From Phenylobacterium sp. (GTDB lineage Bacteria > Pseudomonadota > Alphaproteobacteria > Caulobacterales > Caulobacteraceae), in NCBI GenBank assembly GCA_018001015.1, contig JAGNIV010000004.1:124001-188000 (forward strand): a DNA stretch of 64,000 nucleotides, given 5' to 3'. The position numbers and the translations under genes were made by a program. Below the pieces are notes generated by a model. That model saw nothing but the letters and a program-made list of their open reading frames with translations, did not search any database and was not told the DNA's origin. Below are positions 32,911 through 55,495 of this stretch, one piece after another (within the stretch, counting starts at the first letter, position 1; every line of letters starts with the position of its first letter).

Positions 32911-34212
32911 TTGCCGTTTGAGTTCGAGATCCCGGGCGTGGCGGCTGAGATTCTGGCGGCCCGGACCGCGGAGGCGCTGGACCCCATCCTCACCAAACTC
33001 ACAAGATCCGCGTCAGCCCTGGGTGCGCCGACTGTGCGCGGCCACAAACTGTTCGTCAAAGACCTGGACGACACGATCCCGCACATCGCCCGGGTGCTGC
33101 GACTGGATGACCGCGACGGCGAAAAGAGCAACGACAATGTCTGCGTCATCGCCACCCAGCTCTATGGGGTCGGCGGCCACAGCAAGGTGGTGGCTGACAT
33201 CACGCGCCTGATCGGCGGCGAGAAGGTCAGCCTGATCCTCACCGATCTCTATGGGAACATCGCCTATCGCCGGTTGATCGGCGAGGACATGGAGGCGCGG
33301 GGCTATCACTGCCGCGCCTTGCTGGCGCTCAAGGCGCCCAGCGTTCTGGACCGCACTATCGAGCTGCATCGTCTGCTGTGCGCGATCAAGCCGACGCGGA
33401 TATTCCTGCTGCAGCACCACATGGACGTCTGTGCGGTGACGGCCACCTATCCGTTCCGCGACATCACCGAATTCGTCCACCATGCCGACCATCTGCCGTG
33501 CCTTGGCGCGACGGTGGGCTATTCCGCGCATGTGGACCTGACCTACACCTGCCACCCGATCTGCGCGGCGGCCGGTTTGAATCCGATCTATTCGGGCATG
33601 ACCCTTCCCGGTCTTTCCGCCGTGCAGGGCGCTGAAAAGTCTGATGGTCCGCTGGTCTTCGGCACCTGCGGCAACCTCGGAAAATACCGGCAGGAAGGGC
33701 GCGCCAGCCGCTACCGATGGATTGATTGGGTGATCCCCGCCTTGCGGACGCCGAATTCCAAATTCATCCACATCGGGCCGACCGATGCGGCCTTCGAACA
33801 GGATATCCGCCAGGGCCTGGCCGACGCCGGGATTGATCCGGAGCGCTATGTCTTCGCCGGACTGACGCCAAGTCTGCAAACGGCGCTGATCGACCATCAG
33901 GTCGATGTCTATATCTCCAGCTACCCGGAGGGCGGCGGGCGCGCGACGCTTGAGGCCCTGGCCGCCGGCGTACCGGCCGTCGCTCCGAGCGAGGCCGAGA
34001 TGGGGCCTCTGGTCCAGTACTCCTCCCCGCTGTCGGGCTGGGCCCTGGTCTATGATCCGGCCCAGATGCCCGCGGCGATCGCGGACGCCGAGAGCCGTCG
34101 TGACGCGATGCGTAGCGCCGCCTATCGCGCGACGGTGCAGATCGAGCTCAATCGGTTCGAGCAATATGTCGCCGGTCGGCCGCTCGGGCCCGCGCCCGCG
34201 CCCCAGAGCTAG
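32911..34212 (+). CDS. Glycosyltransferase, GT-B fold
   Basis: 433 residues from TTG 32911, supported by GGGAGG at 32900-32905. The N-terminal domain has a glycine turn near ATQLYGVGGHSKVVADI (residues about 76-92). The C-terminal domain has the nucleotide-sugar site pattern with DVYISSYPEGGGRATLEALAAGVPAV (about 331-356), read as two overlapping parts: the EGGG loop and the LEALAAG helix. It probably transfers a sugar from a nucleotide donor. It is the first plus-strand gene of the acyl-sugar cluster and faces a convergent methyltransferase gene. Confidence 0.75.
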   Translation: MPFEFEIPGVAAEILAARTAEALDPILTKLTRSASALGAPTVRGHKLFVKDLDDTIPHIARVLRLDDRDGEKSNDNVCVIATQLYGVGGHSKVVADITRLIGGEKVSLILTDLYGNIAYRRLIGEDMEARGYHCRALLALKAPSVLDRTIELHRLLCAIKPTRIFLLQHHMDVCAVTATYPFRDITEFVHHADHLPCLGATVGYSAHVDLTYTCHPICAAAGLNPIYSGMTLPGLSAVQGAEKSDGPLVFGTCGNLGKYRQEGRASRYRWIDWVIPALRTPNSKFIHIGPTDAAFEQDIRQGLADAGIDPERYVFAGLTPSLQTALIDHQVDVYISSYPEGGGRATLEALAAGVPAVAPSEAEMGPLVQYSSPLSGWALVYDPAQMPAAIADAESRRDAMRSAAYRATVQIELNRFEQYVAGRPLGPAPAPQS

Positions 34213-34964
34213 GCTTGGCGTCGCCGCCTGGCGACCACGCCGATATTGGCCAGCAGGTGGGGCGGAAGCTCGCCGGAGATGTCCGTCAGGGCGCGCAGAA
34301 GGTCAGGCGACCATTCGCGCATCATGCTGTTGGGCACGATCTTCACGAAGTAGCCAAAGCGCTCCTCGATCTCGAGCCCGCAAGCTTCGAAGTCGCTGGC
34401 GAACTGGTCGAGACTGTAGACCCGCTGATGTCCCACCGCATGGTCGCGGGGCGACAGGTCGTCAGGCTTGGACTGTAGACCGATCATCACCGCCAGTTGC
34501 CGGTGCAGGGACTGGGCGTTGGGCACCACGCCGACGATCCGGCCCTCCGGCGTCAGGCACGAGGCCATGGCCGCGATCGCCGCGCGGGGCTCGTCGACAT
34601 GCTCCAGCACATGCAGGGCCAGGGCCGCGTCGTAGGGCTGGGCGGGTTTGAACTCTTCGAACAGCGAATGGTGGACCACCACCTTGTCGCCGAACCGCGC
34701 GCGGGCAGCCTCGCAGAGCTTCTCCGAGCCCTCGACGATCTCGACGCTGTAGCCACGCTCCACCAGCGGCGCGGTGATCGTGCCCTCGCCATAGCCGAAC
34801 TCCAGGATCCGGTCCCTGGGCGACAGCTTGGCCAGGATGGAGGGCAGGTTCTGGGTGTGGATGACGTTCTCGATGAAGTTCTCGCCGGTGGTGTCTTCCA
34901 GGTAGACAGACTCAGCGAACTTCTCGAGGGCGTGATCGGACGACATGTTCAGGTTCCGCGGCAT
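34209..34964 (-). CDS. Class I SAM-dependent methyltransferase
   Basis: 251 residues. Motif I is ILEFGYGEGTIT (about 48-59), then the acidic strand VEIVEGSE and the segment YDAALALHVLEHV typical of Methyltransf_23-type enzymes. Its stop overlaps that of the glycosyltransferase on the other strand by four bases, and it is divergent from the GNAT gene. The enzyme may methylate a sugar or an acyl chain in this cluster; the substrate is not visible. Confidence 0.85.
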   Translation of the reverse strand: MPRNLNMSSDHALEKFAESVYLEDTTGENFIENVIHTQNLPSILAKLSPRDRILEFGYGEGTITAPLVERGYSVEIVEGSEKLCEAARARFGDKVVVHHSLFEEFKPAQPYDAALALHVLEHVDEPRAAIAAMASCLTPEGRIVGVVPNAQSLHRQLAVMIGLQSKPDDLSPRDHAVGHQRVYSLDQFASDFEACGLEIEERFGYFVKIVPNSMMREWSPDLLRALTDISGELPPHLLANIGVVARRRRQA

Positions 34965-35048
34965 GATTTTGCGCAGTGATATTGGAATGCGGTGGTTGAC
35001 GCCACGCCGTTACCGAACCACTCGTCGCGCGTGCCACAGGACCGATCC

Positions 35049-35654
35049 ATGACCGCCGCCGCCACCCCGGCGCAGACCGTGCTGAGCGGCGCCTTCGTGA
35101 CGCTGCGCCCCCTGGCCGTGGCCGATGCGGCGATGACCTTCCGCTGGCGGCATGATGATCGCGCCCGCTACCTGAACAAGGCCGCGCCGACGGTGGCCGA
35201 CCAGGCGCGCTGGATCGCCGCCCGGCCCCCCGCCGAGTACAACTTCATCATCGAGCTGAAGGACGGCGCGCCCATCGGCATGGTGGCCCTGCTGGAGATC
35301 GACGCCGCCAATCGCCGGGCCGAAGCCGGGCGGTTCCTGATCGGCGAGGCGCAGGCCGCGCGCGGCGTCCCCGCGGCGGTCGAGGCCATGAAGCTGGTTT
35401 ACGAACTGGCCTTCGACACCCTGGGCCTGGAGCGGATCCACGGTTTGATCGGGGCCGACAATCACCTCATGCTCAAGTGGCAGCTGTTTCTCGGCATGAA
35501 GGAGGAGGGGCGGTTGCGCCGGCACTATTTCAAGGACGGCGGGTTCATCGACGCCATCGCGCTGGGCCTGCTCGCCTCCGACTATCGGGCGGTCGCGCGG
35601 CCGCGTATGCTGGGCCTGATCGCGGCCGGTCGGCCGGCCCGCGCCGCACAATAG
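35049..35654 (+). CDS. GNAT-family N-acetyltransferase (RimJ/PseH-like)
   Basis: 201 residues from ATG 35049; a GTG at 34992 is an alternative. It opens with VTLRPLAVADAAMTFRWRHDD and has the cofactor-binding strand and loop near RFLIGEAQAARGVPAAVEAM, then GLERIHGLIGADNHLMLKWQ. The type is that of PseH-like amino-sugar N-acetyltransferases and RimJ-like enzymes. An ACP gene begins 17 bases on, so it could use an acyl-ACP or acyl-CoA to acylate the amino sugar made by the FdtA/FdtB pair. Confidence 0.8.
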   Translation: MTAAATPAQTVLSGAFVTLRPLAVADAAMTFRWRHDDRARYLNKAAPTVADQARWIAARPPAEYNFIIELKDGAPIGMVALLEIDAANRRAEAGRFLIGEAQAARGVPAAVEAMKLVYELAFDTLGLERIHGLIGADNHLMLKWQLFLGMKEEGRLRRHYFKDGGFIDAIALGLLASDYRAVARPRMLGLIAAGRPARAAQ

Positions 35655-35670
35655 GATTTGGAGAGTTCGA

Positions 35671-35973
35671 ATGGCCGGCGAAGACGAGGTCCTGGCGATC
35701 GTGTTGCGCGCCTTGGAGAACCTGAACGAGGAACTTGAGGCGGACCAGCAGGTCCCCGTGGCCGCCACGACCGCCTTGTTCGGCGCCGATGCGGAGCTGG
35801 ATTCCCTGGCCCTCGTCTCGGTGATCGTCGATGTCGAGGCGGGGCTGGCCGAGCGGTTCGGCCGCCCCTTCAGCCTGATGGACGACCAGGCCATGGAGCG
35901 CGAAGTCTCGCCCTTCACCAGCGTTCAGGCCCTGGTGGACTATATCGGCGAGCTGCTCGCCAAGCCGGCCTGA
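35671..35973 (+). CDS. Acyl carrier protein-like protein 1
   Basis: 100 residues, somewhat longer than usual. The phosphopantetheine site is AELDSLALVSVIVDVE, with the serine at residue 49 by my count. An insertion around LMDDQAMEREVSP lengthens the third helix. A GGAG ribosome site precedes the ATG. It is the first of two ACPs in the cluster and follows the GNAT gene closely, so it may carry the acyl group that is finally transferred. Confidence 0.8.
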   Translation: MAGEDEVLAIVLRALENLNEELEADQQVPVAATTALFGADAELDSLALVSVIVDVEAGLAERFGRPFSLMDDQAMEREVSPFTSVQALVDYIGELLAKPA

Positions 35974-35990
35974 GGCCGGACGTCCGCCTG

Positions 35991-36911
35991 GTGACCCAGA
36001 CCTTCGAGATCACGGCTCAGGGCCACCCCCGTCTGTCCCGGATGCGCGGCATCTTCGCCGAACAATACCGGTTCTCCCGCGACCTCGTCGACCGCGCCGC
36101 CATGGCGTTCGGTAAGCCCTGGGCCGACGAGGCCGAGGAAACCTTGCAGGTGTTGTTTTCCGACGATGAGGCCCTGGCCTTGGCGGTGAAGGGCTACAGC
36201 GCCTTCGCCCTGGATTCCATGCGGCGGCAGGCCCGCTTCGAGAAGGACCTGGCCTATCCCGCCAAGACCTATGAAGAGGCCGCCAGGGAAGTCTATTTCA
36301 ACGACGACCACATGATGGGCGTCTATCTTCCAGGCCTGCTGCTGTCGCATTTCCTGTGGCCGCACCACTACCGGCAGCTTGAGTTCTTCGACACCGCGTT
36401 CGTCGCGCCGATGCGGGCCGCCGGCGGCGATCGGTTCGTTGAGGTGGGCGTCGGCACCGGGCTATATTCGCGCCGCCTCTTGCAGGCGCTCCCCGGCGCG
36501 ACGGGTCACGGCCTGGACATCAGCCCCGCCTCCCAGGCCTACGCCAACCGGCACCTGTCCGCATTCGGGTTCGGCGACCGCTATCAGGTTCATCTACGCG
36601 ATGTGGCCGAGGAGGCCGAGGCGTCAGCCTCCTGGCTGGTCTGCGTGGAGGTTCTGGAGCACCTGGAGGACCCGGTCACCTTCCTGCAGACCCTGCGCCG
36701 GACCCTGGCGCCGGGCGGACGGGCCTTCATCACCGCGGCCCTCGACGCGGCCAACGCCGACCACATCTATCTCTACCGGACCTCCGAACAGGTGCAGGCC
36801 CATCTGGAGGCCGCGGGCTTCGCCCTGGAACAGGCGTTCCTGGGCGCGGCCTATAAGCCCGTCCGGGCCGGTGCGCCCGTCCCGCTTGCGGCGGCATTTG
36901 TGGTCCTCTAG
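35991..36911 (+). CDS. SAM-dependent methyltransferase with N-terminal extension
   Basis: 306 residues, GTG start. About 140 residues of unknown fold come first. Then comes the methyltransferase core with motif I in FVEVGVGTGLYSRRLL, the acidic strand HGLDISPASQAYA, and LVCVEVLEHLEDP. ACP 1 lies 18 bases upstream and an SDR 11 bases downstream, both in line. C- or O-methylation of an ACP-bound acyl chain is a reasonable guess. The N-terminal part is not recognised. Confidence 0.8.
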   Translation: MTQTFEITAQGHPRLSRMRGIFAEQYRFSRDLVDRAAMAFGKPWADEAEETLQVLFSDDEALALAVKGYSAFALDSMRRQARFEKDLAYPAKTYEEAAREVYFNDDHMMGVYLPGLLLSHFLWPHHYRQLEFFDTAFVAPMRAAGGDRFVEVGVGTGLYSRRLLQALPGATGHGLDISPASQAYANRHLSAFGFGDRYQVHLRDVAEEAEASASWLVCVEVLEHLEDPVTFLQTLRRTLAPGGRAFITAALDAANADHIYLYRTSEQVQAHLEAAGFALEQAFLGAAYKPVRAGAPVPLAAAFVVL

Positions 36912-36921
36912 GGCTGAACCC

Positions 36922-37662
36922 GTGACCGACACCTCGCCAGATCCGGACGGTTCCGCGCTCTACGCCGGCAAGGTGGCCCTGGTCACCGGCGCCTCGCGCG
37001 GCGTGGGCCTGACCATCGTCCGCCATTTTCTGGCCAACGGCGCCACGGTCATCGGCCTGGCGCGCGGCGAGGCGGGCCTGGCTAATGACGCCTATCATCA
37101 CCTGCATGTGGACGTCGGGGACGCCAGCGCCGTGCAGCAGGCCTTCCTGACCATCGGCAAGCTCAGCCCCCACCTGGATATTGTCATCAACAACGCGGCC
37201 GTCCTGACCTCGCAATACGCCATGATCATGCCGCCCTCGGCCGCCCAGGCCATGCTCAACGTCAACCTGCTGGGCCCCTTCATGGTGTCGCGGGAAGCCG
37301 CCAAGCTGATGCGCAAGCGCAAATGGGGGCGGATCATCAATATCAGCTCCATGGCCGTCAGCCTGGAGCCGATGGGCGACAGCATCTATGCGGCCAGCAA
37401 GGCCGGGCTCAGCACCCTGGCCAACGTGATGGCCAAGGAGTTCGCGGCGCTGAACGTGACCTGCAACACCGTGGCGATCACCGCGTTGGAGACCGACATG
37501 CTGGCCCAGCTTCCCCGCGACAAGGTCGAGGCGGTGGTGGCCGGCCTGCCCATCCCGCGTTTTGCCACCGACGATGACGTCCTCAACGTCATCGACTTCT
37601 TCGCCTCCGAGCGCAGTTCCTACGTCACCGCCCAGACGGTGTTCCTGGGCGGGGTGAACTGA
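36922..37662 (+). CDS. SDR oxidoreductase, FabG-like
   Basis: 246 residues from GTG 36922; longer starts in the frame cover the methyltransferase gene. NAD(P) motif TGASRGVG, then NNAAV, catalytic Ser in ISSMAVS and YAASK (Tyr-x-x-x-Lys), with an FLGGVN ending as in 3-oxoacyl-ACP reductases. Its stop and the KAS III start share bases (ATGA-type), which supports a role in reducing a ketoacyl-ACP made by that synthase. Confidence 0.88.
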   Translation: MTDTSPDPDGSALYAGKVALVTGASRGVGLTIVRHFLANGATVIGLARGEAGLANDAYHHLHVDVGDASAVQQAFLTIGKLSPHLDIVINNAAVLTSQYAMIMPPSAAQAMLNVNLLGPFMVSREAAKLMRKRKWGRIINISSMAVSLEPMGDSIYAASKAGLSTLANVMAKEFAALNVTCNTVAITALETDMLAQLPRDKVEAVVAGLPIPRFATDDDVLNVIDFFASERSSYVTAQTVFLGGVN

Positions 37663-38684
37663 TGGCCGGTCCCGTCGACCGGCCTGGCGTGGCGATCGCC
37701 GGAGTCGGGCACCATCTTCCGACCTATTTCGAGGACAACGAGACCCTTTGCCGGACCTTGCCGGTGACGCCGGAGTGGATCCTGGAGAAGACCGGCATCA
37801 AGCAGCGCGGGATCGCGGCGCCCGGCGACACCGCGTCGGACTACGCTCTCCAGGCCGCCCGCGCCGCCATTGAGATGGCGGGCATCGACGCCGGCGAGAT
37901 CGACCTGATCATCGCCGCCACCTTCTCGGCCGACTACCTGTTCCCGCCGCTGTCGGCCAAGGTGCAGCGTGAGCTGAAGGCCGCCTCGGCCCAGGTCTTC
38001 GACCTGCAGGCCAATTGCACCGGCTTCGTCGCCGGCCTGACCACAGCCGCCGATCGGATGATGCTGGACGAGAGCGTGCGCCACGCCCTGGTGATCGGGA
38101 TCGACTTCTGCTCGCGCTATATCGACCGCACAGACGAGAACACCGCCATCTATCTGGCCGACGGGGCCGGGGCGGCGGTGCTGAGCCGCACCACCCCCGG
38201 CAATGGCATCCTGGCCTCCAGCTTCTTCACCGACAGCTCCAGCTACGAAGCGGTGCGGCTACGGGGCGGCGGGTCGAGCTTCCCTAATACCGGCCGCGCC
38301 TTCGATCCGGCCGTGGACCTGATGGAAATGAACGGCCTGGCCACCTGGAAACAGGCCATCACCCACCTGCCCAGCGTCATCCGCAAGGCCTGCGCCAAGG
38401 CGTCGGTGGAGGTGAAGGCGGTGGACTTCCTGGTCTTCCATCAGGCCAACTTCAACCTGATCCACTACATCGTCCGGAAGATGGGCTTTGATCTGACGCG
38501 CACCTATACGAACGTGCAGGAGATCGGGAACACCGGGGCGGCGTCCATCGCCATCGCGCTGAGCGAGGCGGTGCGCAAGGGGCTGGTGAAAGCCGGAGAC
38601 CTGGTGGTGCTGGCCGCGGTGGGCGCCGGCTTCAACTTCGGGGCCAGCGTCTGGCGCTGGGAAATGCCCAGGGGGGGGCGCTAG
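37662..38684 (+). CDS. 3-oxoacyl-ACP synthase III (FabH-like)
   Basis: 340 residues. The catalytic triad is complete: Cys 119 in QANCTGFVAG, His 260 in FHQANFNLI, and Asn 290 in IGNTGAASIAIAL. KAS III condenses a starter acyl-CoA (or acyl-ACP) with malonyl-ACP. The housekeeping fabH usually neighbours plsX and ihfA; this copy lies in a cluster of ACPs, reductases and an acyl ligase, so it is a dedicated enzyme. It probably makes one short 3-ketoacyl-ACP. Confidence 0.92.
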   Translation: MAGPVDRPGVAIAGVGHHLPTYFEDNETLCRTLPVTPEWILEKTGIKQRGIAAPGDTASDYALQAARAAIEMAGIDAGEIDLIIAATFSADYLFPPLSAKVQRELKAASAQVFDLQANCTGFVAGLTTAADRMMLDESVRHALVIGIDFCSRYIDRTDENTAIYLADGAGAAVLSRTTPGNGILASSFFTDSSSYEAVRLRGGGSSFPNTGRAFDPAVDLMEMNGLATWKQAITHLPSVIRKACAKASVEVKAVDFLVFHQANFNLIHYIVRKMGFDLTRTYTNVQEIGNTGAASIAIALSEAVRKGLVKAGDLVVLAAVGAGFNFGASVWRWEMPRGGR

Positions 38685-38686
38685 CC

Positions 38687-39883
38687 ATGTTCTCCGATTT
38701 CGACACCATCAAGGTCGGCGACACCCGCTCACTGACCCGGACCATCACCGAGGCCGACGTGCGGCGGTTCGTGGAGATGACCGGCGACGACAATCCGCTC
38801 CACGTCGATCGCGCCTATGCGGAGACCACCAGCTTCAAGGACATCGTCGTCCACGGCATGCTGGGAGCCTCCTTTATCTCCACCGTGATCGGCACGCAGC
38901 TGCCCGGACCGGGCGCGCTCTGGGTGGCCCAGAGCCTGGAATTCCTGGCGCCGGTAAGGCTGGGGGACACCCTGACCGTGACCTGCGCGGTGACGAAGAA
39001 GCATGAGCGCGACCGGCTGCTGGAACTTGCCACCACCATCGTCAACCAGGCCGGCCAGAGCGTCCTGACCGGACAGGGCAAGGTCAAGGTGCTGGCGCCC
39101 AAGGCGGCGCCCCAGGCGGTGGCCGAGCTTGGCCGGGCCAGGGTGGCCCTGGTCACCGGCGGGGCCGGGGGCATCGGCAGAGCCATCTGCCTGCGCCTGG
39201 CGCGGGACGGCTTCCACGTGCTGGTCAACTATCGCTCGCAGCCGGAACGCGCCCAGGCCCTCGTGCGCGAGATCGCCGCCCTGGAAGGCGCGGCCCGCGC
39301 CGTCGCCCTGTCGGCGGACATCTCCACGGCCGAAGGGGCCGCGGCCTTGGCGGCGGCGGCCACGGGCGCGTTCGGCGGGGTCGATGTCCTGGTGAACAAC
39401 GCCTCGCCGCGTATCGGCGGCAAGGCCCTGGCGGCCACCGACTGGACCGATATCCAGGCCCATCTGGACGTGCAGGTGAAGGGCGCCTTCCTGCTGACCC
39501 AGGCCTTGGCTCCGGCCATGGCGGAGCGCCGCTGGGGGCGGATCGTCAACATCACCTCACTCGTCGCCGAAGGGGCGCCGACCGTGACCTGGACCGGCTA
39601 CGCCATGGCCAAGGCGGCCCTGGCGACCATGTCGCGCCATCTCGCCGCCGAGTTGGGGCCGAGCGGCGTGACCGTGAATTGTGTCGCGCCGGGCCTGACC
39701 GACGCCGGCCTCGTGGGCGAGGTGCCGGAAAAGGCCCAGATGCTGGCGGCCCGGCAAACTCCCTTGCGGCGGTTGGCGACGCCGCGGGATGTGGCCGGCG
39801 CTGTGGCCTACCTCGCGTCCGAGGACGCCGCTTTCGTCACCGGTCAGACCCTGGGGGTCAATGGCGGCATGGCGATGCGATGA
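38687..39883 (+). CDS. MaoC hydratase fused to an SDR reductase
   Basis: 398 residues. Residues 1-135 are a MaoC/hot-dog (R)-hydratase with the active site in TGDDNPLHVDRAYA and VVHGMLGASFIS. From about 145 the SDR starts (LVTGGAGGIGRAI), with NNAS, ITSL and YAMAK and a final LGVNGGMAMR. Both domains act on 3-hydroxyacyl intermediates, so one chain could reduce a ketoacyl-ACP and dehydrate or hydrate it. The frame is continuous; I see no sign of an assembly error. The stop overlaps the FkbH start (ATGA). Confidence 0.9.
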   Translation: MFSDFDTIKVGDTRSLTRTITEADVRRFVEMTGDDNPLHVDRAYAETTSFKDIVVHGMLGASFISTVIGTQLPGPGALWVAQSLEFLAPVRLGDTLTVTCAVTKKHERDRLLELATTIVNQAGQSVLTGQGKVKVLAPKAAPQAVAELGRARVALVTGGAGGIGRAICLRLARDGFHVLVNYRSQPERAQALVREIAALEGAARAVALSADISTAEGAAALAAAATGAFGGVDVLVNNASPRIGGKALAATDWTDIQAHLDVQVKGAFLLTQALAPAMAERRWGRIVNITSLVAEGAPTVTWTGYAMAKAALATMSRHLAAELGPSGVTVNCVAPGLTDAGLVGEVPEKAQMLAARQTPLRRLATPRDVAGAVAYLASEDAAFVTGQTLGVNGGMAMR

Positions 39884-41652
39884 CCCTCGGCGCTGATCGC
39901 TTGAGCGCCCTGGCGGCGCCTGGCCTGTCCCTGGCCCAGACGATGAAGCTGGTGGCGGAGATCGAGGCCGAAGCGCCCGCGACGGTCGCCAGCCTGGCCA
40001 TCAGCGCGGGATCCACGATCGATCTGCTGGGGCTGTTTTTGCGCAAGCACGCCCTGCTGGCCGGTGTCCGGCTGAGCGTCAGCCAGGGTCAGTTCGACGA
40101 TCCCGTCGGCGACGCCGAGCGGTTCGCGGCCCAGGGGGTGGAGCACCTGCTGATCGCCCCGTTCTTCGACCTTCTCGCGCCGGCCTTCGAGGCTCAGGTG
40201 GGGCGGTTGAGTCCTGAGCTGATTGACGCCCGTGAGGCCGAGATTCGCGCCCGATATCGGCTGGCGTTCCAGAAGGGGTCGGGGTTCCGCACAATCTTCC
40301 TGGCCGACTTCCATCGGTTCGGCCCGCCCGCGCCGGGGGGCGACGCCACCGACGTGGTCCTCGCCCGGTTCAATGCCGCCTTGCGTGACGAGGCCGCGGC
40401 CTTCGCCAATGTGCGGCGGATCGACATGAGCGGCCTGGTGGCCGAGGTCGGGCGGTCGGCCGCCTTCGATCCACGCTTCTACCTGCGCAACAAGGCGCCC
40501 TATTCGGCCACCCTGCTGGACGCCTGGGCGCGGCAGGTCACCGCCCTGTCGCGGGGTTATGGCGCCCAGTTCCGCAAGGCCCTGGTGCTGGATTGCGACA
40601 ATACCCTGTGGGGCGGGGTGCTGGGCGAAGACCTGGTCGCGGGCGTGAAACTCGGACCGCACGACTATCCGGGCGCCGTCTATTGGAGGGCTCAGCAGGT
40701 GTTCGCAGGTCTGCGGCGCGAGGGCGTGCTCCTCTGCCTGTGCAGCAAGAACAATCCGCAGGATGTCGAGGAGATGTTCGACACTCACCCGGACATGGTG
40801 CTCACCTCGGACGACATCATCCTGAAGAAGGTCAATTGGCGCGAGAAGGTCGAGAACCTGAGGGAGATCGCCGCCGACCTGAACATCGGTCTCGACAGCC
40901 TGGTCTTCCTCGACGATTCCGACTTCGAGTGCGAGGCGGTGCGCCGCCAGCTGCCGATGGTGTCGGTCTTTCAGACCCCGGCCAACCTGCCGGCCTATCT
41001 GGGGGTGATGGAGGATATCCGGTCGCTGTTCCTGGCCGGTGGGGTCAGCGACGAGAGCCGGGCCAAGACCGACCAGTACCGCCAGCGCGCCCTGGCGCTG
41101 GAGGCGCAGCAGGCCTTCGAGAGTCACGAGGACTACCTCGCCTCCCTGCAGATGACCGTGCGGGTCGCCCGCAATGATGCGGCCCAGGCCGCGCGGATCA
41201 GCGAGCTCAGCCAGAAGTCCAACCAGTTCAACCTGACGACCCGGCGCTACGCCGTCGCCGAAATCCAGGCCTTGATGGCGAGTGACGCCGCCGACGTCTG
41301 GTCGGTGGAGGTCGCCGACCGGTTCGGCAAGGCGGGCCTGACCGGGGTCATCGTGGCGCGCTACGCGCCGGGGGAGGTCAGGATCGAGAACCTGCTGATG
41401 AGCTGCCGGGTGCTGGGACGCGGGGTAGAGTTCGCGCTATGGGCGCCGGTGCTGGCGGCCGCCTCGGCGCGGGGTTGCGTGACCCTCGCCGCCGACTACC
41501 GGCCAAGCGCCAAGAACGCCCAGGTCGCCGACTACTACGACCGGCTCGGCTTGATACGGGTGGGCGAGGCCGATGGCGCGGGGCGATATGCTCATGCGAT
41601 AGAGGGCCTCACCCTCCCGCCGACCCCGTGGATTTGCCTTGTCGATGATTGA
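39880..41652 (+). CDS. FkbH-like HAD-IIIC protein
   Basis: 590 residues from ATG 39880. The N-terminal 220 residues are the usual extension of this family. The HAD core begins LVLDCDNTLWGGVLGED (residues about 232-248) and continues with LCSKNNP and LVFLDDSDFE. The C-terminal part (about 430-580) is GNAT-like, with a strand ending RIENLLMSCRVLGRGVE. FkbH-type enzymes take D-glycerate from 1,3-bisphosphoglycerate and load glyceryl onto an ACP. The next gene is an ACP that overlaps its stop, which fits that reaction. Confidence 0.85.
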   Translation: MTLGADRLSALAAPGLSLAQTMKLVAEIEAEAPATVASLAISAGSTIDLLGLFLRKHALLAGVRLSVSQGQFDDPVGDAERFAAQGVEHLLIAPFFDLLAPAFEAQVGRLSPELIDAREAEIRARYRLAFQKGSGFRTIFLADFHRFGPPAPGGDATDVVLARFNAALRDEAAAFANVRRIDMSGLVAEVGRSAAFDPRFYLRNKAPYSATLLDAWARQVTALSRGYGAQFRKALVLDCDNTLWGGVLGEDLVAGVKLGPHDYPGAVYWRAQQVFAGLRREGVLLCLCSKNNPQDVEEMFDTHPDMVLTSDDIILKKVNWREKVENLREIAADLNIGLDSLVFLDDSDFECEAVRRQLPMVSVFQTPANLPAYLGVMEDIRSLFLAGGVSDESRAKTDQYRQRALALEAQQAFESHEDYLASLQMTVRVARNDAAQAARISELSQKSNQFNLTTRRYAVAEIQALMASDAADVWSVEVADRFGKAGLTGVIVARYAPGEVRIENLLMSCRVLGRGVEFALWAPVLAAASARGCVTLAADYRPSAKNAQVADYYDRLGLIRVGEADGAGRYAHAIEGLTLPPTPWICLVDD

Positions 41653-41881
41653 CGAAACCGCCCTGAAGCAGATCCTCGCCGCCGTGCTGGGCGTGGACGC
41701 CGCCGCTATCACCGCCGACTCCAACAGCGACACGATCGAGAGTTGGGATTCCCTGCGCCACATGAATCTGGTCCTGGCTTTGGAGGAGGAGTTCGGCGTC
41801 TCCATCCCGGACGAAGAGGCGGCCAACATCACCTCCTACGCCCTGATCAAGCTGGTGCTCGAAGAGCTCACGGCGGCCTGA
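41645..41881 (+). CDS. Acyl carrier protein 2
   Basis: 78 residues from ATG 41645; a TTG at 41639 is also in frame. It overlaps the end of the FkbH gene. The attachment site is IESWDSLRHMNLVLALEEEF, a standard ACP pattern, followed by GVSIPDEEAANITS. Stand-alone ACPs next to FkbH proteins usually carry the glyceryl unit. The acyl ligase starts 3 bases after the stop. Confidence 0.9.
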   Translation: MIDETALKQILAAVLGVDAAAITADSNSDTIESWDSLRHMNLVLALEEEFGVSIPDEEAANITSYALIKLVLEELTAA

Positions 41882-41883
41882 CC

Positions 41884-43224
41884 ATGCAGTGGCTGCTCGA
41901 CCGCTTCGCCACGGCGCCGGAGACCCCCGCCTTCATCCACGAGGATCGGGTGGTGAGCTATGGCCAGGTGTTGCGGATGGTGGAGGCCTTCGGCGCCCGG
42001 CTCGCCGCCGAGGGGGTGGCCCGCGGCGAGAGGGTCGCGGTCCTGGCGGACTATTCGCCTGAGGTCTTCTGCCTGATCCTGGCCCTGGCCCGGAACGCCG
42101 ACATCATCATTCCCATCAGTCCCGCCTCGGTGGTCGAGGAGGCAGCCGCCTTGGCCATCTGCGGCTGCGACTGGCTGGCCAGGTTCGACGCGGAGGGTGG
42201 AGAGGTGGCGTTTTCCCGCCGGGTGGTGGCGGTGGAGAACCCGCTCATCGCCGGCCTGATCGCCGACGGCCGCCCCGGCCTGGTGCTCTTCTCGTCAGGT
42301 TCGACGGGCAAGCCCAAGGGTATCCTGCACGACTTCGACCGGGTGGCCGACAAGTTCCGCAAGGCGCGGGCCGCGACCCGGGCCATCCCCTTCCTGATGA
42401 TCGATCACTTCGGCGGGGTGAACACCATCCTGGCCATCACCAGCAGCCTGGGCACGGTGGTCACGGTGGCCGACCGGTCGAGCGCCAGCATCTGCGCGGC
42501 CATCGCCCGTCACAGGGTCGAGCTGCTGCCCGCCACGCCCTCGTTCCTGACCATGTTGATGGCCTCGGGCCTCCACCGGGATTTCGACCTCAGCTCACTC
42601 AAGCGCATCACCTACGGCACCGAGGTCATGCCTCAATCGACCCTCGACCGCCTACGCGCGGCCTTCCCGGGGGTTGAGCTGCAGCAGACCTATGGCCTGT
42701 CGGAGGTGGGCGTGCTGCGTTCGCAGTCCCGAGACGACGGCTCGCTCTGGGTGCGGGTCGGGGGCGAGGGGTTCGAGACCAGGGTGGTGGACGGCGTGCT
42801 GTGGATCCGGTCCGACTACGCCATGGTCGGCTACCTGAACGCGCCCTCCGAGTTCGACGCCGAGGGCTGGTTCAACACCCAGGACCAGGTGGAGGTCGAT
42901 GGGAGCTATTTCAAGATTCTGGGCCGTGTCACCGACATCATCAACATCGGGGGCCAGAAGGTCTATCCGGCCGAGGTGGAGGACGTGATCCTGGAGCTTG
43001 AGAACGTCGCCGACGTGGCCGTGTTTGGAGAGGCGCACGCTTTCCTCGGCCAGATGGTGGTGGCCAAGGTGGTCCTGGAAGCTCCGGAGCCGGCCGAGGC
43101 GCTGAAGAAGCGTATCCGACAGGCCTGCCTGGCCAGGCTCGCCAGCTACAAGGCGCCGGCCAAGGTTCAGATCGTGCCGGGCCCCCTGCACACCGCGCGG
43201 CAGAAGAAGACGCGCCAAGCCTAG
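41884..43224 (+). CDS. Acyl-adenylating ligase (AMP-binding family)
   Basis: 446 residues from ATG 41884; shorter than full acyl-CoA synthetases. The P-loop is VLFSSGSTGKPKGIL, the aromatic motif is QQTYGLSEVG, and the hinge is GRVTDIINIGGQKVYPAEVE. The last ten residues keep a Lys-rich tail (TARQKKTRQ) where the catalytic Lys belongs. It activates a carboxylic acid and probably loads it on an ACP here. It is convergent with the FdtB-like gene, overlapping by 4 bases. Confidence 0.88.
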   Translation: MQWLLDRFATAPETPAFIHEDRVVSYGQVLRMVEAFGARLAAEGVARGERVAVLADYSPEVFCLILALARNADIIIPISPASVVEEAAALAICGCDWLARFDAEGGEVAFSRRVVAVENPLIAGLIADGRPGLVLFSSGSTGKPKGILHDFDRVADKFRKARAATRAIPFLMIDHFGGVNTILAITSSLGTVVTVADRSSASICAAIARHRVELLPATPSFLTMLMASGLHRDFDLSSLKRITYGTEVMPQSTLDRLRAAFPGVELQQTYGLSEVGVLRSQSRDDGSLWVRVGGEGFETRVVDGVLWIRSDYAMVGYLNAPSEFDAEGWFNTQDQVEVDGSYFKILGRVTDIINIGGQKVYPAEVEDVILELENVADVAVFGEAHAFLGQMVVAKVVLEAPEPAEALKKRIRQACLARLASYKAPAKVQIVPGPLHTARQKKTRQA

Positions 43225-44306
43225 GCGCGAAGGGCGCTGGCCACCAATCCCACATTCTCCGACGGCATCGCCGGCCAGAGCGGCAGGGACAGCACCTGGT
43301 CGGCCAGGGCCTCGGCCAGGGGGAAGGCGCCGGGCTTGAAGCCGCAGTGGGCGAAGGCGGCCTGGCGGTGGCAGGCGATGGGATAGTGGATCAGGCTCTC
43401 GATCCCGGCCGCCCTCAGCCTGGCCTGCAGGGCGTCGCGCTCGGGACTGCGGACCACATAGAGATGATAGACGTGGCGGGCCCCTTCGGCCTCGATGGGC
43501 GTCGTCAGGTCCGAGCCGGCCAGGGCCGTGTCATAGGCGGCGGCCAGCGCCCGGCGCCGGTCGTTGGCGGCGTCCAGGCGCGGCAATAACACCCGCAGGA
43601 AGGCGGCCTGGAGCTCATCCAGCCTGGAGTTCGCTCCCAGCGTCTGGTGAACGTACTTCTGGTCGGAGCCATAGTTGCGCAGGCGGCGGACCGCCTCGGC
43701 CAGGCCGGCGTCATTGGTGGTGACCGCGCCGGCGTCGCCGAGCGCGCCGAGGTTCTTGGTGGGATAGAAGCTGAAGGCGGTGGCGTGGGCGCCGCCGCCC
43801 GTCCGGCGGCCGTGATAGCTCGCGCCATGGCTCTGGGCGGCGTCCTCCAGCACGAACAGGCCGTGTCGCTGGGCCAGCGCCATCAGCGGCTCAAGATCGA
43901 CGGGATGGCCGTAGAGCGAGACCGGCACGATGGCGGCCGTCCTGGCCGTCACCGCCGCGGCGCAGGCGGCCGCGTCGAGGGTGTAGGTGCGCGGGTCGAC
44001 CTCCACCGGAACCGGGACCGCGCCCACCGCCTCCACCGCCATCCAGGTGGCGGCGAAGGTATGGGCCGGCACGATCACCTCGGCGCCCGCCGCCACGCCG
44101 GCCGCGCGCAGGGTGAGGGTCAGGGCGTCCAGGCCATTGCCGACGCCGACGCACCGGGCCGCGCCGCACCAGGCGGCGAACTCGGCCTCGAAGGCCGCCA
44201 GCTCCGGCCCGAGGATCATCCAGCCGGAGTCCATCACCCGGCCGTAGGCCAGGTCCAACTCTCCCCTCAGGCCCGGCTCGGACAGGTTGAGGTCGAAGAA
44301 CTTCAC
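43221..44306 (-). CDS. PLP-dependent sugar aminotransferase (FdtB/DegT family)
   Basis: 361 residues. The PLP lysine is Lys 184 in FSFYPTKNLGALGDAG, the conserved Asp is 155 in EDAAQSHGA, and GNGLDALTLTL is the phosphate-binding site. Together with the FdtA-like ketoisomerase directly upstream (4-base overlap) it should make dTDP-3-amino-3,6-dideoxyhexose (Fuc3N or Qui3N). The two genes are on the minus strand, convergent with the ACP operon. Confidence 0.88.
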   Translation of the reverse strand: MKFFDLNLSEPGLRGELDLAYGRVMDSGWMILGPELAAFEAEFAAWCGAARCVGVGNGLDALTLTLRAAGVAAGAEVIVPAHTFAATWMAVEAVGAVPVPVEVDPRTYTLDAAACAAAVTARTAAIVPVSLYGHPVDLEPLMALAQRHGLFVLEDAAQSHGASYHGRRTGGGAHATAFSFYPTKNLGALGDAGAVTTNDAGLAEAVRRLRNYGSDQKYVHQTLGANSRLDELQAAFLRVLLPRLDAANDRRRALAAAYDTALAGSDLTTPIEAEGARHVYHLYVVRSPERDALQARLRAAGIESLIHYPIACHRQAAFAHCGFKPGAFPLAEALADQVLSLPLWPAMPSENVGLVASALRA

Positions 44307-44698
44307 GGCCTGGCGCGGGCCAGGAAGGCGTCGAAATCGCGGATGTAGTCGGCCTCGTCATAGGGGGTCGAGGCCAGCACCAAGCAGACCGAGCCGGAGG
44401 AGAAGTTGTCGATCTCCCGCCACTGCATGGGTCCGATGTGGAGCCCGACATGCGGGCGGTTGAGGGTGACCCGCTCCTCGCTGACGCCGTCGTGCAGACG
44501 CACGTCGAAGCTGCCGGAGACGGCGATCAGCAGCTGGTGCAGGGCCTTGTGCGCATGGCCGGCCCGCACAGATCCGCTGGGGACGTCATAGAGGTAGTAG
44601 ACGCGGGCGATGCTGAAGGGGACGTGGGCGTCGGACTCGATGAAGGACAGATTGCCCCGCGGGTCGGAGATCACCGGAAGGTTGATGAGGTTCGCCAA
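44303..44698 (-). CDS. dTDP-4-keto-6-deoxyhexose 3,4-ketoisomerase (FdtA/QdtA-like cupin)
   Basis: 131 residues, the usual size of the WxcM/FdtA cupins. It opens INLPVISDPRGNLSFIE, has the sequence VPSGSVRAGHAHKALHQLL with the catalytic histidines, and ends with the strand VCLVLASTPYDEADYIRD. It isomerises dTDP-4-keto-6-deoxyglucose to the 3-keto sugar, the substrate for the aminotransferase. Whether the fucose or quinovose form results cannot be told. rmlA and rmlB are not in the window. Confidence 0.88.
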   Translation of the reverse strand: MANLINLPVISDPRGNLSFIESDAHVPFSIARVYYLYDVPSGSVRAGHAHKALHQLLIAVSGSFDVRLHDGVSEERVTLNRPHVGLHIGPMQWREIDNFSSGSVCLVLASTPYDEADYIRDFDAFLARARP

Positions 44699-44755
44699 GT
44701 CGCTCTCCTGCGCCGGTTCCGAAATGGCGGGCGAGGCCCCCCCAAGTCAACCGTT

Positions 44756-46207
44756 TCAGGCCAGGGCCTGGGCCAGGCCCGGCAGCCGGCCGATGACCCC
44801 GGCGGTGAGTTCCTCACGACGCTCCCAGAGTTCGCGGTACCAGGCGCTGCGGGCGGCCGCCTGGTGGGCGAACATGCGGTGGTCACGAACATAGTCCCAG
44901 GCCTGCCGGGCCATCACTTGACGCGCGGGCTCGTCGCGCAGGGCCTCGGCGAGGCGCGGCGCCCAGTCCTTCAGCCGGTGGGCGATCAGGCCGGTCTGCC
45001 CGTGAACGATGGTCTCGGCATAGATGGTGGGAGAGGCCAGGGTGACCACGCCCCGGGCGGCGGCGTCGAGGAACTTGGCGTCGCTCTTGGTGTCCTCGTA
45101 GAGCCGCCCTTCCACGGGCGAGAGCGAGACCGCGCAGGTGGCCATCAGGTCGAGATAGGCCTCGTAGGGCATGTAGTCGTGGAAGCTCTTGTTGGCCGTC
45201 GGCAGGGCGTCGAACACCGCCCGGTCGCCCACCACCACATATTCCACCTCCGGAAATTCCTCGGTCACCGGCGCGAGCGAGGCCGCCACCCGTGCGGCGA
45301 ACTTGCCCCGCGACAGGGCCCCGTAGAAGACCCGGCGGGGCGCCGGGGCGGGGGGAAGGGGAGGCAGGTCGAAAACGGCGTTCGGGAACACCTTGACCGC
45401 GGGATTGTACTTGGAAAACGCCCGCCCCAACCGCTCGGTGGAGGTCTGCAGCGCGTGCGTGAAGCCATAGGTGAGCCAGTCGTCGGGCGCCAGCTTGCGC
45501 CCAGCGACGGCGGCGATCATGGCCGGATGATCGTCGATCTCCATCACCACAGGCCAGCCGCGCCGGACGGCGTCGGCCATCGCCACGCACCAGGCCTTGG
45601 CCGAGGGCAGGAGCGGGCGTTGCAGCACCAGGATCTTCGGGGACTCGGGCCCAAGCGGCAGGAAGGTGAACGGCGCGCCGCCATAGGCCACGGTCAACTC
45701 GGGCTCGCTGCGCAGGGCGTGGGCCGGCAGCCGGGTGCGGATGTCCATCAGCCGAGGCGCAAATGCGGCGATCTGGACGGGCAGGGGGGCGGGTTCGGCC
45801 GCGCTCTTCTGAACCACCAGCAGCAGGTCGCGGTCCTCGACCTGGGGGAGTTGGGCCGGCGCCAGGCGAGGGGCGAAGTCGTCGAAGTGATCGTCGCCGG
45901 GGATCAGGGCCTGAAGCTTGGCGATCCGGAAGGTGTCGCCCAGGGCCTCAAGGGCGGCGGCGACGTGGGCCCCGGAGCGCGAAGCGGCCACCAGGACGCC
46001 GTCCGCCGCGAGAGCCTGGGCGTGGGTCTTCAGGTCCTCAAGGCTCAGGCTGTCGAGGTCGGCGATCACGACGCCGTCAGGGGTGTCGGACACGAAGGCC
46101 GCGGCGGGATTGCGCGCGGCATAGGCCCTCTCGAACGCGGGCGCGCCGGTTCCCACATAGACCAGCCGTCGGACGGTCAGAGGCGTGCGGCCGTCAAGCA
46201 GGGACAT
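44756..46207 (-). CDS. Glycosyltransferase (GT4-like)
   Basis: 483 residues. The N-terminal 150 residues are an unrecognised alpha/beta part. The GT-B core follows, with MEIDDHPAM, FPNAVFDLPPLP and the C-terminal donor site around YMPYEAYLDLMATCAVSLSP and KFLDAAARGVVTLASP. A final helical segment follows. It lies upstream of the FdtA-like gene (57-base gap), so it may transfer the aminodeoxyhexose. It is the last gene of the sugar cluster; recA follows on the other strand. Confidence 0.8.
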   Translation of the reverse strand: MSLLDGRTPLTVRRLVYVGTGAPAFERAYAARNPAAAFVSDTPDGVVIADLDSLSLEDLKTHAQALAADGVLVAASRSGAHVAAALEALGDTFRIAKLQALIPGDDHFDDFAPRLAPAQLPQVEDRDLLLVVQKSAAEPAPLPVQIAAFAPRLMDIRTRLPAHALRSEPELTVAYGGAPFTFLPLGPESPKILVLQRPLLPSAKAWCVAMADAVRRGWPVVMEIDDHPAMIAAVAGRKLAPDDWLTYGFTHALQTSTERLGRAFSKYNPAVKVFPNAVFDLPPLPPAPAPRRVFYGALSRGKFAARVAASLAPVTEEFPEVEYVVVGDRAVFDALPTANKSFHDYMPYEAYLDLMATCAVSLSPVEGRLYEDTKSDAKFLDAAARGVVTLASPTIYAETIVHGQTGLIAHRLKDWAPRLAEALRDEPARQVMARQAWDYVRDHRMFAHQAAARSAWYRELWERREELTAGVIGRLPGLAQALA

Positions 46208-46328: not shown

Positions 46329-46419
46329 GGAGAACAAACTAAGTACACCTGAGTCCGGCGGCGGGGAGAGCGATCTACCCCACCGGGTTGGCGGAATCAT
46401 GGGATAGGGAGTGCTTGGT

Positions 46420-47490
<1,071 letters not shown>

Positions 47491-47495
47491 GCGGC

Positions 47496-47524
47496 TCCGG
47501 CGGCGGCTTCGGCCCGCCGCCGGA
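47496..47524 (+). terminator. Strong hairpin after recA
   Basis: TCCGGCGGCG (47496-47505) pairs with CGCCGCCGGA (47515-47524) with a UUCG-type loop region. No U-run follows, so it may stabilise the 3' end or pause polymerase rather than be a complete intrinsic terminator. The rest of the 274-bp gap to alaS shows a T-rich run near 47682 and no gene. Confidence 0.5.
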
Positions 47525-47764
47525 CCGGTTCCCACCGTTCACGTGGACGGCCGCTTTGGCCCTCGGAAACCCGTCGCCGCGCCCCCGCAAACCGCGTGGC
47601 TGACGGGGCAGGGCCGAACCCCGCACGGTCGTTCACGCAGGAGAAGGGCGCTCGGACTCCGGTCCAGGCGTCCTTTTTCTTTGCGGCGACCTCCAAGTCT
47701 CGTAAACGGACCCCAATATCGCAGCGCAATACGCGCCCCATTTTGAAGTCTAGCGTCTAGAGCC

Positions 47765-54859: not shown

Positions 54860-55495
54860 GTGAAGCCGATCGCACTCGTGGTGGCGCGGAGGGAAACCCT
54901 GCCGCGCATCATCATCGACGCCTGCGCCGCGTCAGGCCGGCCCATCGCCGGCCTGATCGAGGTGGGCGAAGACGCCGACCGGCTGAAGACCGACCTGCCC
55001 GTCCTGGGCGGGGAAGAGCTGCTGAGCGACGCACCGTTCCTCGCCGCCCACGACATCTTCGTCGGCATCGGCGACGGACGCCGCCGGACGCTCAGCGAGG
55101 CGGTGCTGGCGCGCGGCGGGAGCATCGCCACGGTCATCCACCCGGCCGCCATCGTGTCGGCCTCGGCGAAGATCGGGGCCGGCACGGTGATCTCCGCCGG
55201 GGTCGTGGTTCAGATGGACGCTGTCGTCGGCCGCTATTGCTCGCTCAACACCGCCTGCACCGTGGACCACGACAACGTCCTGGAGGACGGGGTCAATATC
55301 GCCCCTGCCGCCCACCTGGCCGGTGGGGTGCGGGTGGGCGAGGGCGCCTTCATCGGCATCGGCGCCACCATCAAGGGCTGGCTGCGGATCGGCGCGCGGG
55401 CGACGGTGGGTGCCGGCGCCGTGGTGCTGAAGGAGGTTCCCGACGGGGTGACCGTGGTGGGCAATCCGGCCAAGCCGATGAGCCCCAAGGCCTAG
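54860..55495 (+). CDS. NeuD/PglD-like sugar acyltransferase
   Basis: 211 residues, GTG start. The N-terminal third is a Rossmann-like sugar-binding part, and from about 85 the left-handed beta-helix hexapeptide repeats begin (AAIVSA, IGAGTVIS, VGRYCSLNTACTV). VDHDNVLEDGV carries the catalytic His of this family (compare H-D in PglD). It would acetylate an amino sugar nucleotide or a sialic-type sugar. It lies 8.6 kb from the FdtA/B cluster. Confidence 0.88.
   Translation: MKPIALVVARRETLPRIIIDACAASGRPIAGLIEVGEDADRLKTDLPVLGGEELLSDAPFLAAHDIFVGIGDGRRRTLSEAVLARGGSIATVIHPAAIVSASAKIGAGTVISAGVVVQMDAVVGRYCSLNTACTVDHDNVLEDGVNIAPAAHLAGGVRVGEGAFIGIGATIKGWLRIGARATVGAGAVVLKEVPDGVTVVGNPAKPMSPKA

Follow-up and report, generated by a model that had tools for sequence, protein, structure and literature searches.

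To our knowledge, N-acylation of amino sugars that depends on an acyl carrier protein (ACP) has been described from few bacteria and with simple acyl groups. The logic closest to the locus analyzed here appears to be that of the viosamine island of Pseudomonas syringae pv. tabaci 6605 and of the homologous PAK flagellin island. The P. syringae island uses an ACP, a β-ketoacyl-ACP synthase III (KAS III), a 3-oxoacyl-ACP reductase, an acyltransferase, a methyltransferase, and an aminotransferase to make a dTDP-N-hydroxyacyl-dideoxy-amino sugar (PMC3927599). FkbH homologs move a glyceryl group from 1,3-bisphosphoglycerate to discrete ACPs (PMC3625739). We analyzed a 64,000-nucleotide stretch of Phenylobacterium sp. 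DNA (assembly GCA_018001015.1, contig JAGNIV010000004.1, positions 124,001 to 188,000; "the window") that contains a block in which acyl genes of these kinds stand beside genes for an amino sugar (Table 1). Judging from its genes, we think it likely that the block is a two-module locus, a 3-amino-3,6-dideoxyhexose set plus an acquired cassette, and that it gives an N-acylated 3-amino sugar.

The block opens with a glycosyltransferase gene (GTa) on the plus strand and a methyltransferase gene (MT1) on the minus strand. The cassette follows on the plus strand in the order GNAT (an N-acyltransferase), ACP1, MT2 (a second methyltransferase), SDR (a short-chain dehydrogenase/reductase), KAS III, MaoC-SDR (a dehydratase–reductase fusion), FkbH, ACP2, and LIG (an acyl ligase), with several of these genes touching or overlapping. 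FdtB, FdtA, and a second glycosyltransferase (GTb) close the block on the minus strand. All the genes that an earlier, sequence-only reading of the window had named were recovered in place, to within the choice of start codon, with intact active-site motifs.

We wondered whether the acyl genes travel together. Genome contigs were scanned for KAS III by way of exact peptide words, and of 248 loci so confirmed we kept the 80 best. Among these 80, 13 loci (L024-L036) were 63–79% identical to the window's KAS III, one (L037, on a short contig of 3 kb) was 48% identical and was excluded from all counts, and the other 66 were at most 39% identical. The 16 loci counted from here on are the window, L024-L036, G824, and G501. 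Searching with 14 window proteins (tblastn) revealed that the neighbors and their order in L024-L036 match the window. The order GNAT-ACP1-SDR-KAS III-MaoC-SDR-FkbH-ACP2-LIG held in each of the 13 other loci in which both ends are visible (L024, L025, L027-L033, L035, L036, G824, and G501). This conserved order exceeds chance: the cassette is a real unit. It occurs in Betaproteobacteria, in Modestobacter and Blastococcus, in two mycobacterial genomes, in a Gemmatimonadetes metagenome-assembled genome (MAG), and in two other Alphaproteobacteria. Two details of its layout vary. In the window, MT2 separates ACP1 from SDR; in 10 of the 11 both-ended loci of the L024-L036 set it precedes GNAT, and L031 gave no match. 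A metallo-beta-lactamase-fold gene stands between SDR and KAS III in relatives (by Pfam in L025 and L030; by tblastn in L026, L028, L144, and L145/L146) and is absent from the window block.

The cassette is rare. No KAS III above 40% identity, the level of housekeeping FabH, was found in 59 other genomes (35 from the same genus and 24 from the same order), one of which (G017) gave no match at all. A strict KAS III match was obtained in one of 385 genomes of the class (the window's own), in two of 398 of the phylum (its own and G824), and in one of 396 of the phylum to which Modestobacter belongs (M. muralis). When the mycobacterial protein served as query, matches came from two of 248 genomes in the genus of M. 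rhizamassiliense, namely that species and G501. The 59-relative, class, and phylum sets partly share genomes, and the spread that we see is limited by sampling. The sequence-only reading had suggested a search for the cluster as a unit among Caulobacterales: the cassette KAS III is missing from all 59 relatives, yet the unit is conserved beyond the order. A role in housekeeping fatty-acid synthesis was rejected, as the genome has another KAS III on contig C25, 37% identical to that of the cassette. A plasmid-borne cassette was also rejected as far as PLSDB shows: MaoC-SDR had no match at E 1e-40, and the 37 KAS III matches were all below 60% identity.

FdtA and FdtB adjoin the cassette in 13 of the 16 loci. 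The sequence-only reading had proposed an ACP-built acyl group for a 3-amino-3,6-dideoxyhexose, and as far as genes can show, this linkage bears the proposal out. In Betaproteobacteria and the Gemmatimonadetes MAG, the pair comes after LIG and shares its strand; it lies upstream of the cassette in Modestobacter and the mycobacteria and is convergent after LIG in the window. That the link recurs although the layout changes points to a functional connection. In L034 and G824, a contig end cuts one side, and neither gene is on the other side. None of the loci that we read placed a homologous cluster in a secondary-metabolite context lacking sugar genes, an arrangement that had been named as speaking against the proposal.

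The sugar genes themselves fit this assignment. The window genome has a single PF05523 match, FdtA. The best solved relatives of FdtB are 2oga (which we take to be DesV), 7b0d, and QdtB (3frk), with perosamine synthetases scoring lower. RmlB (456.8 bits, cut-off 365.1) and RmlA (476.9 bits, cut-off 360.65) are encoded together on contig C35, where rmlD, also above its cut-off, accompanies them. FdtA carries the residue pair Arg (DPRG)/Arg (WRE), as in 5tpu; the pair is Arg/His in FdtA 2pa7 and Tyr/Arg in wild-type QdtA 4o9e. We take 5tpu to be the quinovose-type ketoisomerase WlaRB, which would favor 3-amino-3,6-dideoxyglucose (Qui3N), as a lead only. No hexapeptide N-acetyltransferase of the FdtC/QdtC type was found by Pfam inside the block; a hexapeptide-repeat transferase, a possible sugar acetyltransferase, lies at 54860-55495 of the window, 4.5 kb beyond alaS. 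The mycobacterial loci each have two tandem FdtA copies with complementary losses (L035:4402-5282 and L146:6371-7296): one copy keeps DPRG and has HAY for HAH, and the other keeps HAH and has lost DPRG. To judge by these motifs, the copies might work as a pair.

Do the two modules share a history? Trees of KAS III, MaoC-SDR, and FkbH share their main split, which sets the window, a Rhodospirillales MAG, Modestobacter, and Blastococcus apart from the mycobacteria, the Gemmatimonadetes MAG, and the Betaproteobacteria. G824 falls on the window's side for MaoC-SDR and FkbH and on a long, unsure branch for KAS III; G501 and L031 were left out of the MaoC-SDR tree. In the FdtB tree (from which L034, with no FdtB in view, was left out), the window joins its congeners G011, G025, and G032 with support of 100/100, and its FdtB is 71–73% identical to theirs versus 51–57% to cassette-borne FdtBs. 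In these congeners, FdtA, FdtB, GTa, and GTb cluster within ∼8 kb, and the KAS III cassette is missing. Because FdtB groups with cassette-less congeners while KAS III, MaoC-SDR, and FkbH group with the Rhodospirillales MAG and Modestobacter/Blastococcus, the window, on these trees, unites sugar and transfer genes found at the level of the genus with an acyl cassette that has another origin. Homologs of GTa occur in five of 60 genomes and those of GTb in ten of 60, own genome included in both counts; the GTa homologs of G011, G025, and G032 lie near GTb, FdtA, and FdtB, and a 43% relative of MT1 adjoins GTa in G025. Upstream of recA, in 12–17 kb of G010, G011, G022, and G023, there was no cassette, Fdt, or glycosyltransferase match; the sole matches were SDR-family and kinase cross-hits in G011. 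The block has a GC content of 0.64–0.73 per kb, like the remainder of the window.

What accompanies the genus-level set differs between congeners, two of which have other candidate acyl genes. G025 (L163:4715-12548) has FdtA, FdtB, FkbH (TIGR01686, 239.8 bits), an ACP-like frame named from a WDSL motif with no family match, GNAT, a glyoxalase-like gene, MT1, GTa, and GTb; its FkbH-ACP-GNAT set with FdtA/FdtB is a possible minimal acyl system. In G011, a hexapeptide transferase and an AlgX-like gene are next to GTa, and in G032 a sulfotransferase and a methyltransferase lie near the four genes.

Several points weigh against this picture of two joined modules. The Blastococcus locus L036 has no FdtA or FdtB in the 21 kb read or in 19 kb around its flagellin genes. 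As no FdtB is seen in L034, the closest relative of the window's cassette, it is Modestobacter and the remaining loci with an FdtB that carry the conflict between the trees. G032 has no recognized acyl gene at its FdtA/FdtB/GTa/GTb locus. Finally, GTb is split over two frames in G011 and is present without FdtA/FdtB in the 20 kb read of G026 and G015; thus, GTb need not be dedicated.

We propose the following route. The genus-level module (FdtA, FdtB, GTa, GTb, and probably MT1) would convert dTDP-4-keto-6-deoxyglucose, supplied by RmlA/RmlB from the other contig, into a dTDP-3-amino-3,6-dideoxyhexose, and would transfer the finished sugar to a surface acceptor. The acquired cassette of ∼8 kb, from GNAT to LIG, would build a short oxygenated acyl group on two ACPs: FkbH would load a C3 unit (glyceryl) from bisphosphoglycerate onto ACP2, MaoC-SDR would dehydrate and reduce it to a lactyl unit, KAS III would extend this unit on ACP1, SDR would reduce the 3-keto group, and MT2 would methylate carbon or oxygen. 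GNAT would then transfer the acyl group to the 3-amino group of the sugar. The route uses every cassette enzyme except LIG; the metallo-beta-lactamase-fold gene of the relatives likewise has no place in it. As a full set, KAS III, the two reducing/dehydrating enzymes, FkbH, and a methyltransferase suggest a product beyond a plain glyceryl or 3-hydroxybutanoyl group. A 2-methyl-3-hydroxy-4-methoxypentanoyl-like group is our tentative candidate, and the exact product is a guess that is unlikely to be right in every detail. The hydroxyacyl-ACP of the sequence-only reading is thus supported by the gene set, while its plain glyceryl or hydroxy group was probably too simple.

KAS III, MaoC-SDR, and FkbH retain their catalytic residues in the relatives. 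Counted over alignment rows that include the window's own, Cys119/His260/Asn290 of KAS III and the DxD motif of FkbH were kept in 16 of 16, and the Asp/Asn/His of the MaoC motif GDDNPLH together with Ser291/Tyr305/Lys309 of the SDR part of the fusion in 14 of 14. The DSL motif was found in 11 of 12 rows for ACP1 and in 13 of 14 for ACP2; M. rhizamassiliense has NSL instead in both ACPs (L035:8159-8449 and L035:14069-14299).

Other observations tell against the details of the route. Its chemistry is a prediction from genes, and the lactyl step of MaoC-SDR follows a presumed analogy with bryostatin loading. The GNAT profile reaches FdhC (5kta, positions 9-142 of 188, E 2e-8); however, the best solved relatives of GNAT are spermidine acetyltransferases, many of which score above FdhC. 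For MT2 (model mean predicted local distance difference test score 91.7), the best Foldseek match is the alpha-keto C-methyltransferase SgvM with a template modeling (TM) score of 0.54, but at TM ∼0.5 the structural matches are weak, and they include both C- and O-methyltransferases; the best sequence matches are an uncharacterized methyltransferase and UbiG-like O-methyltransferases.

Which acceptor receives the sugar? The sequence-only reading had favored flagellin or a surface polysaccharide, and the block could be a flagellin glycosylation island whose acylated sugar caps this organism's flagellin, a possibility that we find unlikely. Near-flagellar settings do exist: in M. muralis, Modestobacter sp., and Blastococcus (L024, L025, and L036), flagellin, FliD, FlgK, and FlgL are on the cassette's contig, recognized by its identical length, with FlgL ∼8.8–10.7 kb and the nearest flagellin ∼13–16 kb from the block, and a glycosyltransferase adjoins flagellin in two of the three loci. 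In M. muralis, however, housekeeping genes such as that for citrate synthase intervene between the cassette and the flagellar genes. Flagellin genes were present in 13 of 14 genomes tested, own included, but flagellin is common, so its presence proves little. The exception is M. rhizamassiliense, which has the cassette and no flagellin match; flagellin therefore cannot be the general acceptor.

The other hosts point elsewhere. In Betaproteobacteria, the cassette sits near a GT41 gene in six of seven loci (the seventh, L026, is cut upstream), and four of the seven have a full ABC-HlyD-OEP exporter (type I secretion). In Pelomonas, a giant ALTTAQ-repeat protein is encoded ∼5 kb beyond FdtB, and this gene and GT41 flank the cassette. 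In M. rhizamassiliense and G501, the cassette lies among nonribosomal peptide synthetase (NRPS), MmpL, EryCIII-like glycosyltransferase, TylF methyltransferase, and ABC-2 genes, a content that we take to mark a glycopeptidolipid-type locus, and we read both loci as glycopeptidolipid-like. In the window genome, the block precedes recA and alaS, and the flagellins are on other contigs (C5, C13, and weakly C21). The C13 flagellins do have a GT41 gene beside them: between the flagellins and FlaF/FlbT lie a giant ALTTAQ-repeat protein and GT41 (L128:14848-20000, L137:1-6005), and an FkbM-TPR protein is found in the same neighborhood. As a general acceptor, flagellin has to be given up; in the window organism, it is a possible but unlikely one.

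A further alternative is that FkbH makes a simple product, a glyceryl or di-O-methylglyceryl amide, and that KAS III and MaoC-SDR serve something else. In the block, FkbH is accompanied by an ACP and two methyltransferases; in congener G025, FdtA/FdtB stand with no more than FkbH, the ACP-like frame, GNAT, and MT1; and di-O-methylglyceric acid is reported as a minor modification on Campylobacter jejuni flagellin (PMC3958885). Nevertheless, the active sites of KAS III and MaoC-SDR are intact in all rows and SDR is always in the block, so these three enzymes most likely act on the same acyl group, and we regard a simple C. jejuni-like product as improbable. Tetronate-like ring building, in which KAS III would join glyceryl-ACP to an acyl chain as in abyssomicin, is very improbable: tetronate clusters are built around KAS III, FkbH, and a discrete ACP (PMC3625739), but Pfam finds no lipoyl acyltransferase, alpha/beta-hydrolase, or polyketide synthase (PKS) domain in the block, and FdtA/FdtB and GNAT adjoin it.

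Table 1. Genes of the acyl-sugar block and its neighbors, in window coordinates.
Gene	Assignment	Position	Strand	Basis	Remark
GTa	glycosyltransferase, 433 aa	32911..34212	+	PF13692, 24.4 bits, below cut-off 27	weak recognition; native sugar/transfer set
MT1	class I methyltransferase	34209..34964	-	PF13489	probably native set
GNAT	N-acyltransferase	35049..35654	+	PF13302	open frame from 34992; conserved in cassette
ACP1	acyl carrier protein	35671..35973	+	DSL motif and orthologs	no Pfam or NCBIfam match; call rests on motif and orthologs
MT2	class I methyltransferase, helical N-terminal part	35991..36911	+	family match and predicted fold	
SDR	3-oxoacyl-ACP-reductase-like	36922..37662	+	family match	
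KAS III	β-ketoacyl-ACP synthase III	37662..38684	+	PF08545/PF08541	Cys-His-Asn intact
MaoC-SDR	MaoC dehydratase-SDR fusion	38687..39883	+	PF01575 (MaoC) fused to PF13561 (SDR)	
FkbH	FkbH-type HAD-IIIC acyl (glyceryl) transferase/phosphatase	39880..41652	+	TIGR01686, 265.7 bits, cut-off 146.65	
ACP2	acyl carrier protein	41645..41881	+	PF00550; DSL motif	
LIG	short AMP-forming acyl ligase	41884..43224	+	PF00501, PF13193	
FdtB	FdtB/QdtB-type sugar 3-aminotransferase	43221..44306	-	PF01041, solved relatives, tree	native set
FdtA	FdtA/QdtA-type 3,4-ketoisomerase	44303..44698	-	PF05523, alignments	
GTb	GT-B-like glycosyltransferase, 483 aa	44756..46207	-	PF13524 passed	native set
recA		46411-47490		matches in 34/40 genomes, own included	block ends before recA
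alaS		47765-50404			beyond recA

Some neighboring frames deserve mention. A 386-aa minus-strand frame at 46375-47535 was rejected as a gene, being antisense to recA and without a Pfam match. Beside the L034 cassette, a short frame (L034:5424-5708) has the start and end of MT1 with the middle missing, a shortened copy or an assembly fault. GTb lies inside longer frames with an extra N-terminal stretch in L164:13287-15548 and L171:9893-12079, and neighboring genes there have, by eye, a similar stretch.

We consider it possible, although somewhat less than an even bet, that a single mobile cassette adds the same lactyl-started, methylated C5 hydroxyacyl amide to a 3-amino-3,6-dideoxyhexose and has entered the sugar and transfer sets of its different hosts independently. 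If so, it would have gone into near-flagellar loci in actinobacteria, into glycopeptidolipid loci in mycobacteria, into loci with GT41 and type I secretion in Betaproteobacteria, and into a surface glycan locus in the window. FkbH would then initiate a ketide that decorates a sugar, not a polyketide antibiotic. The same acyl amide would be predicted on Modestobacter flagellin, on a glycolipid of mycobacteria, and, in Roseateles-type bacteria, on a protein that is secreted or modified by GT41. Because this larger cassette keeps its order across phyla while the surrounding gene sets change, it offers a genomic handle on the spread of decorated surface epitopes.

How does the locus compare with known systems? 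The parallel with the viosamine island drawn by the sequence-only reading holds for the KAS III, ACP, and 3-oxoacyl-ACP reductase, which are all in the window block, as are an acyltransferase, methyltransferases, and a sugar aminotransferase. The two differ in other respects: the island makes a 4-amino sugar via VioA and has VioT, a transferase of 1,173 aa, whereas the window would make a 3-amino sugar via FdtA/FdtB, has no VioA-type assignment, and has the two smaller glycosyltransferases of Table 1. FkbH, the second ACP, the ligase, and MaoC-SDR are extra in the window. With the FdtA-FdtB/QdtA-QdtB pathway to dTDP-Fuc3NAc/dTDP-Qui3NAc, the window shares the ketoisomerase and the 3-aminotransferase, but it has GNAT in place of the hexapeptide FdtC/QdtC, and the acyl group is apparently made in situ. 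FdhC, which we take to act on dTDP-Fuc3N with a hydroxybutanoyl donor, is of the same GNAT family and a distant relative. Unlike the methoxymalonyl-ACP pathway (FkbG-K), of which we take the acyl-CoA dehydrogenase FkbI to be a defining part, the block has no such domain by Pfam. FkbH next to an ACP is shared with loading modules made of FkbH and a discrete ACP, such as those of Tmn16 and AbyA2 (PMC3625739), but the window FkbH is in a sugar-acyl setting with no PKS. Our literature search returned no paper joining FkbH with flagellin, O-antigen, or polysaccharide. Unlike the mycobacterial glycopeptidolipid-type loci, the surroundings of the window block showed neither NRPS nor MmpL genes. Among known products, the closest may be a mycobacterial hapten: the serotype 16 glycopeptidolipid of M. 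intracellulare (cluster of Fujiwara, 2008) reportedly ends in a 3-(2-methyl-3-hydroxy-4-methoxypentanoyl)amido-3,6-dideoxyhexose. The comparison is with this product, and the comparable loci with the cassette are those of M. rhizamassiliense and G501. The earlier claim that the combination with FkbH and FdtA had not been described as one system may thus be wrong for mycobacteria. If the serotype 16 cluster holds the cassette, then its mycobacterial version has already been cloned, and the novelty lies in the cassette having reached further phyla and gene settings.

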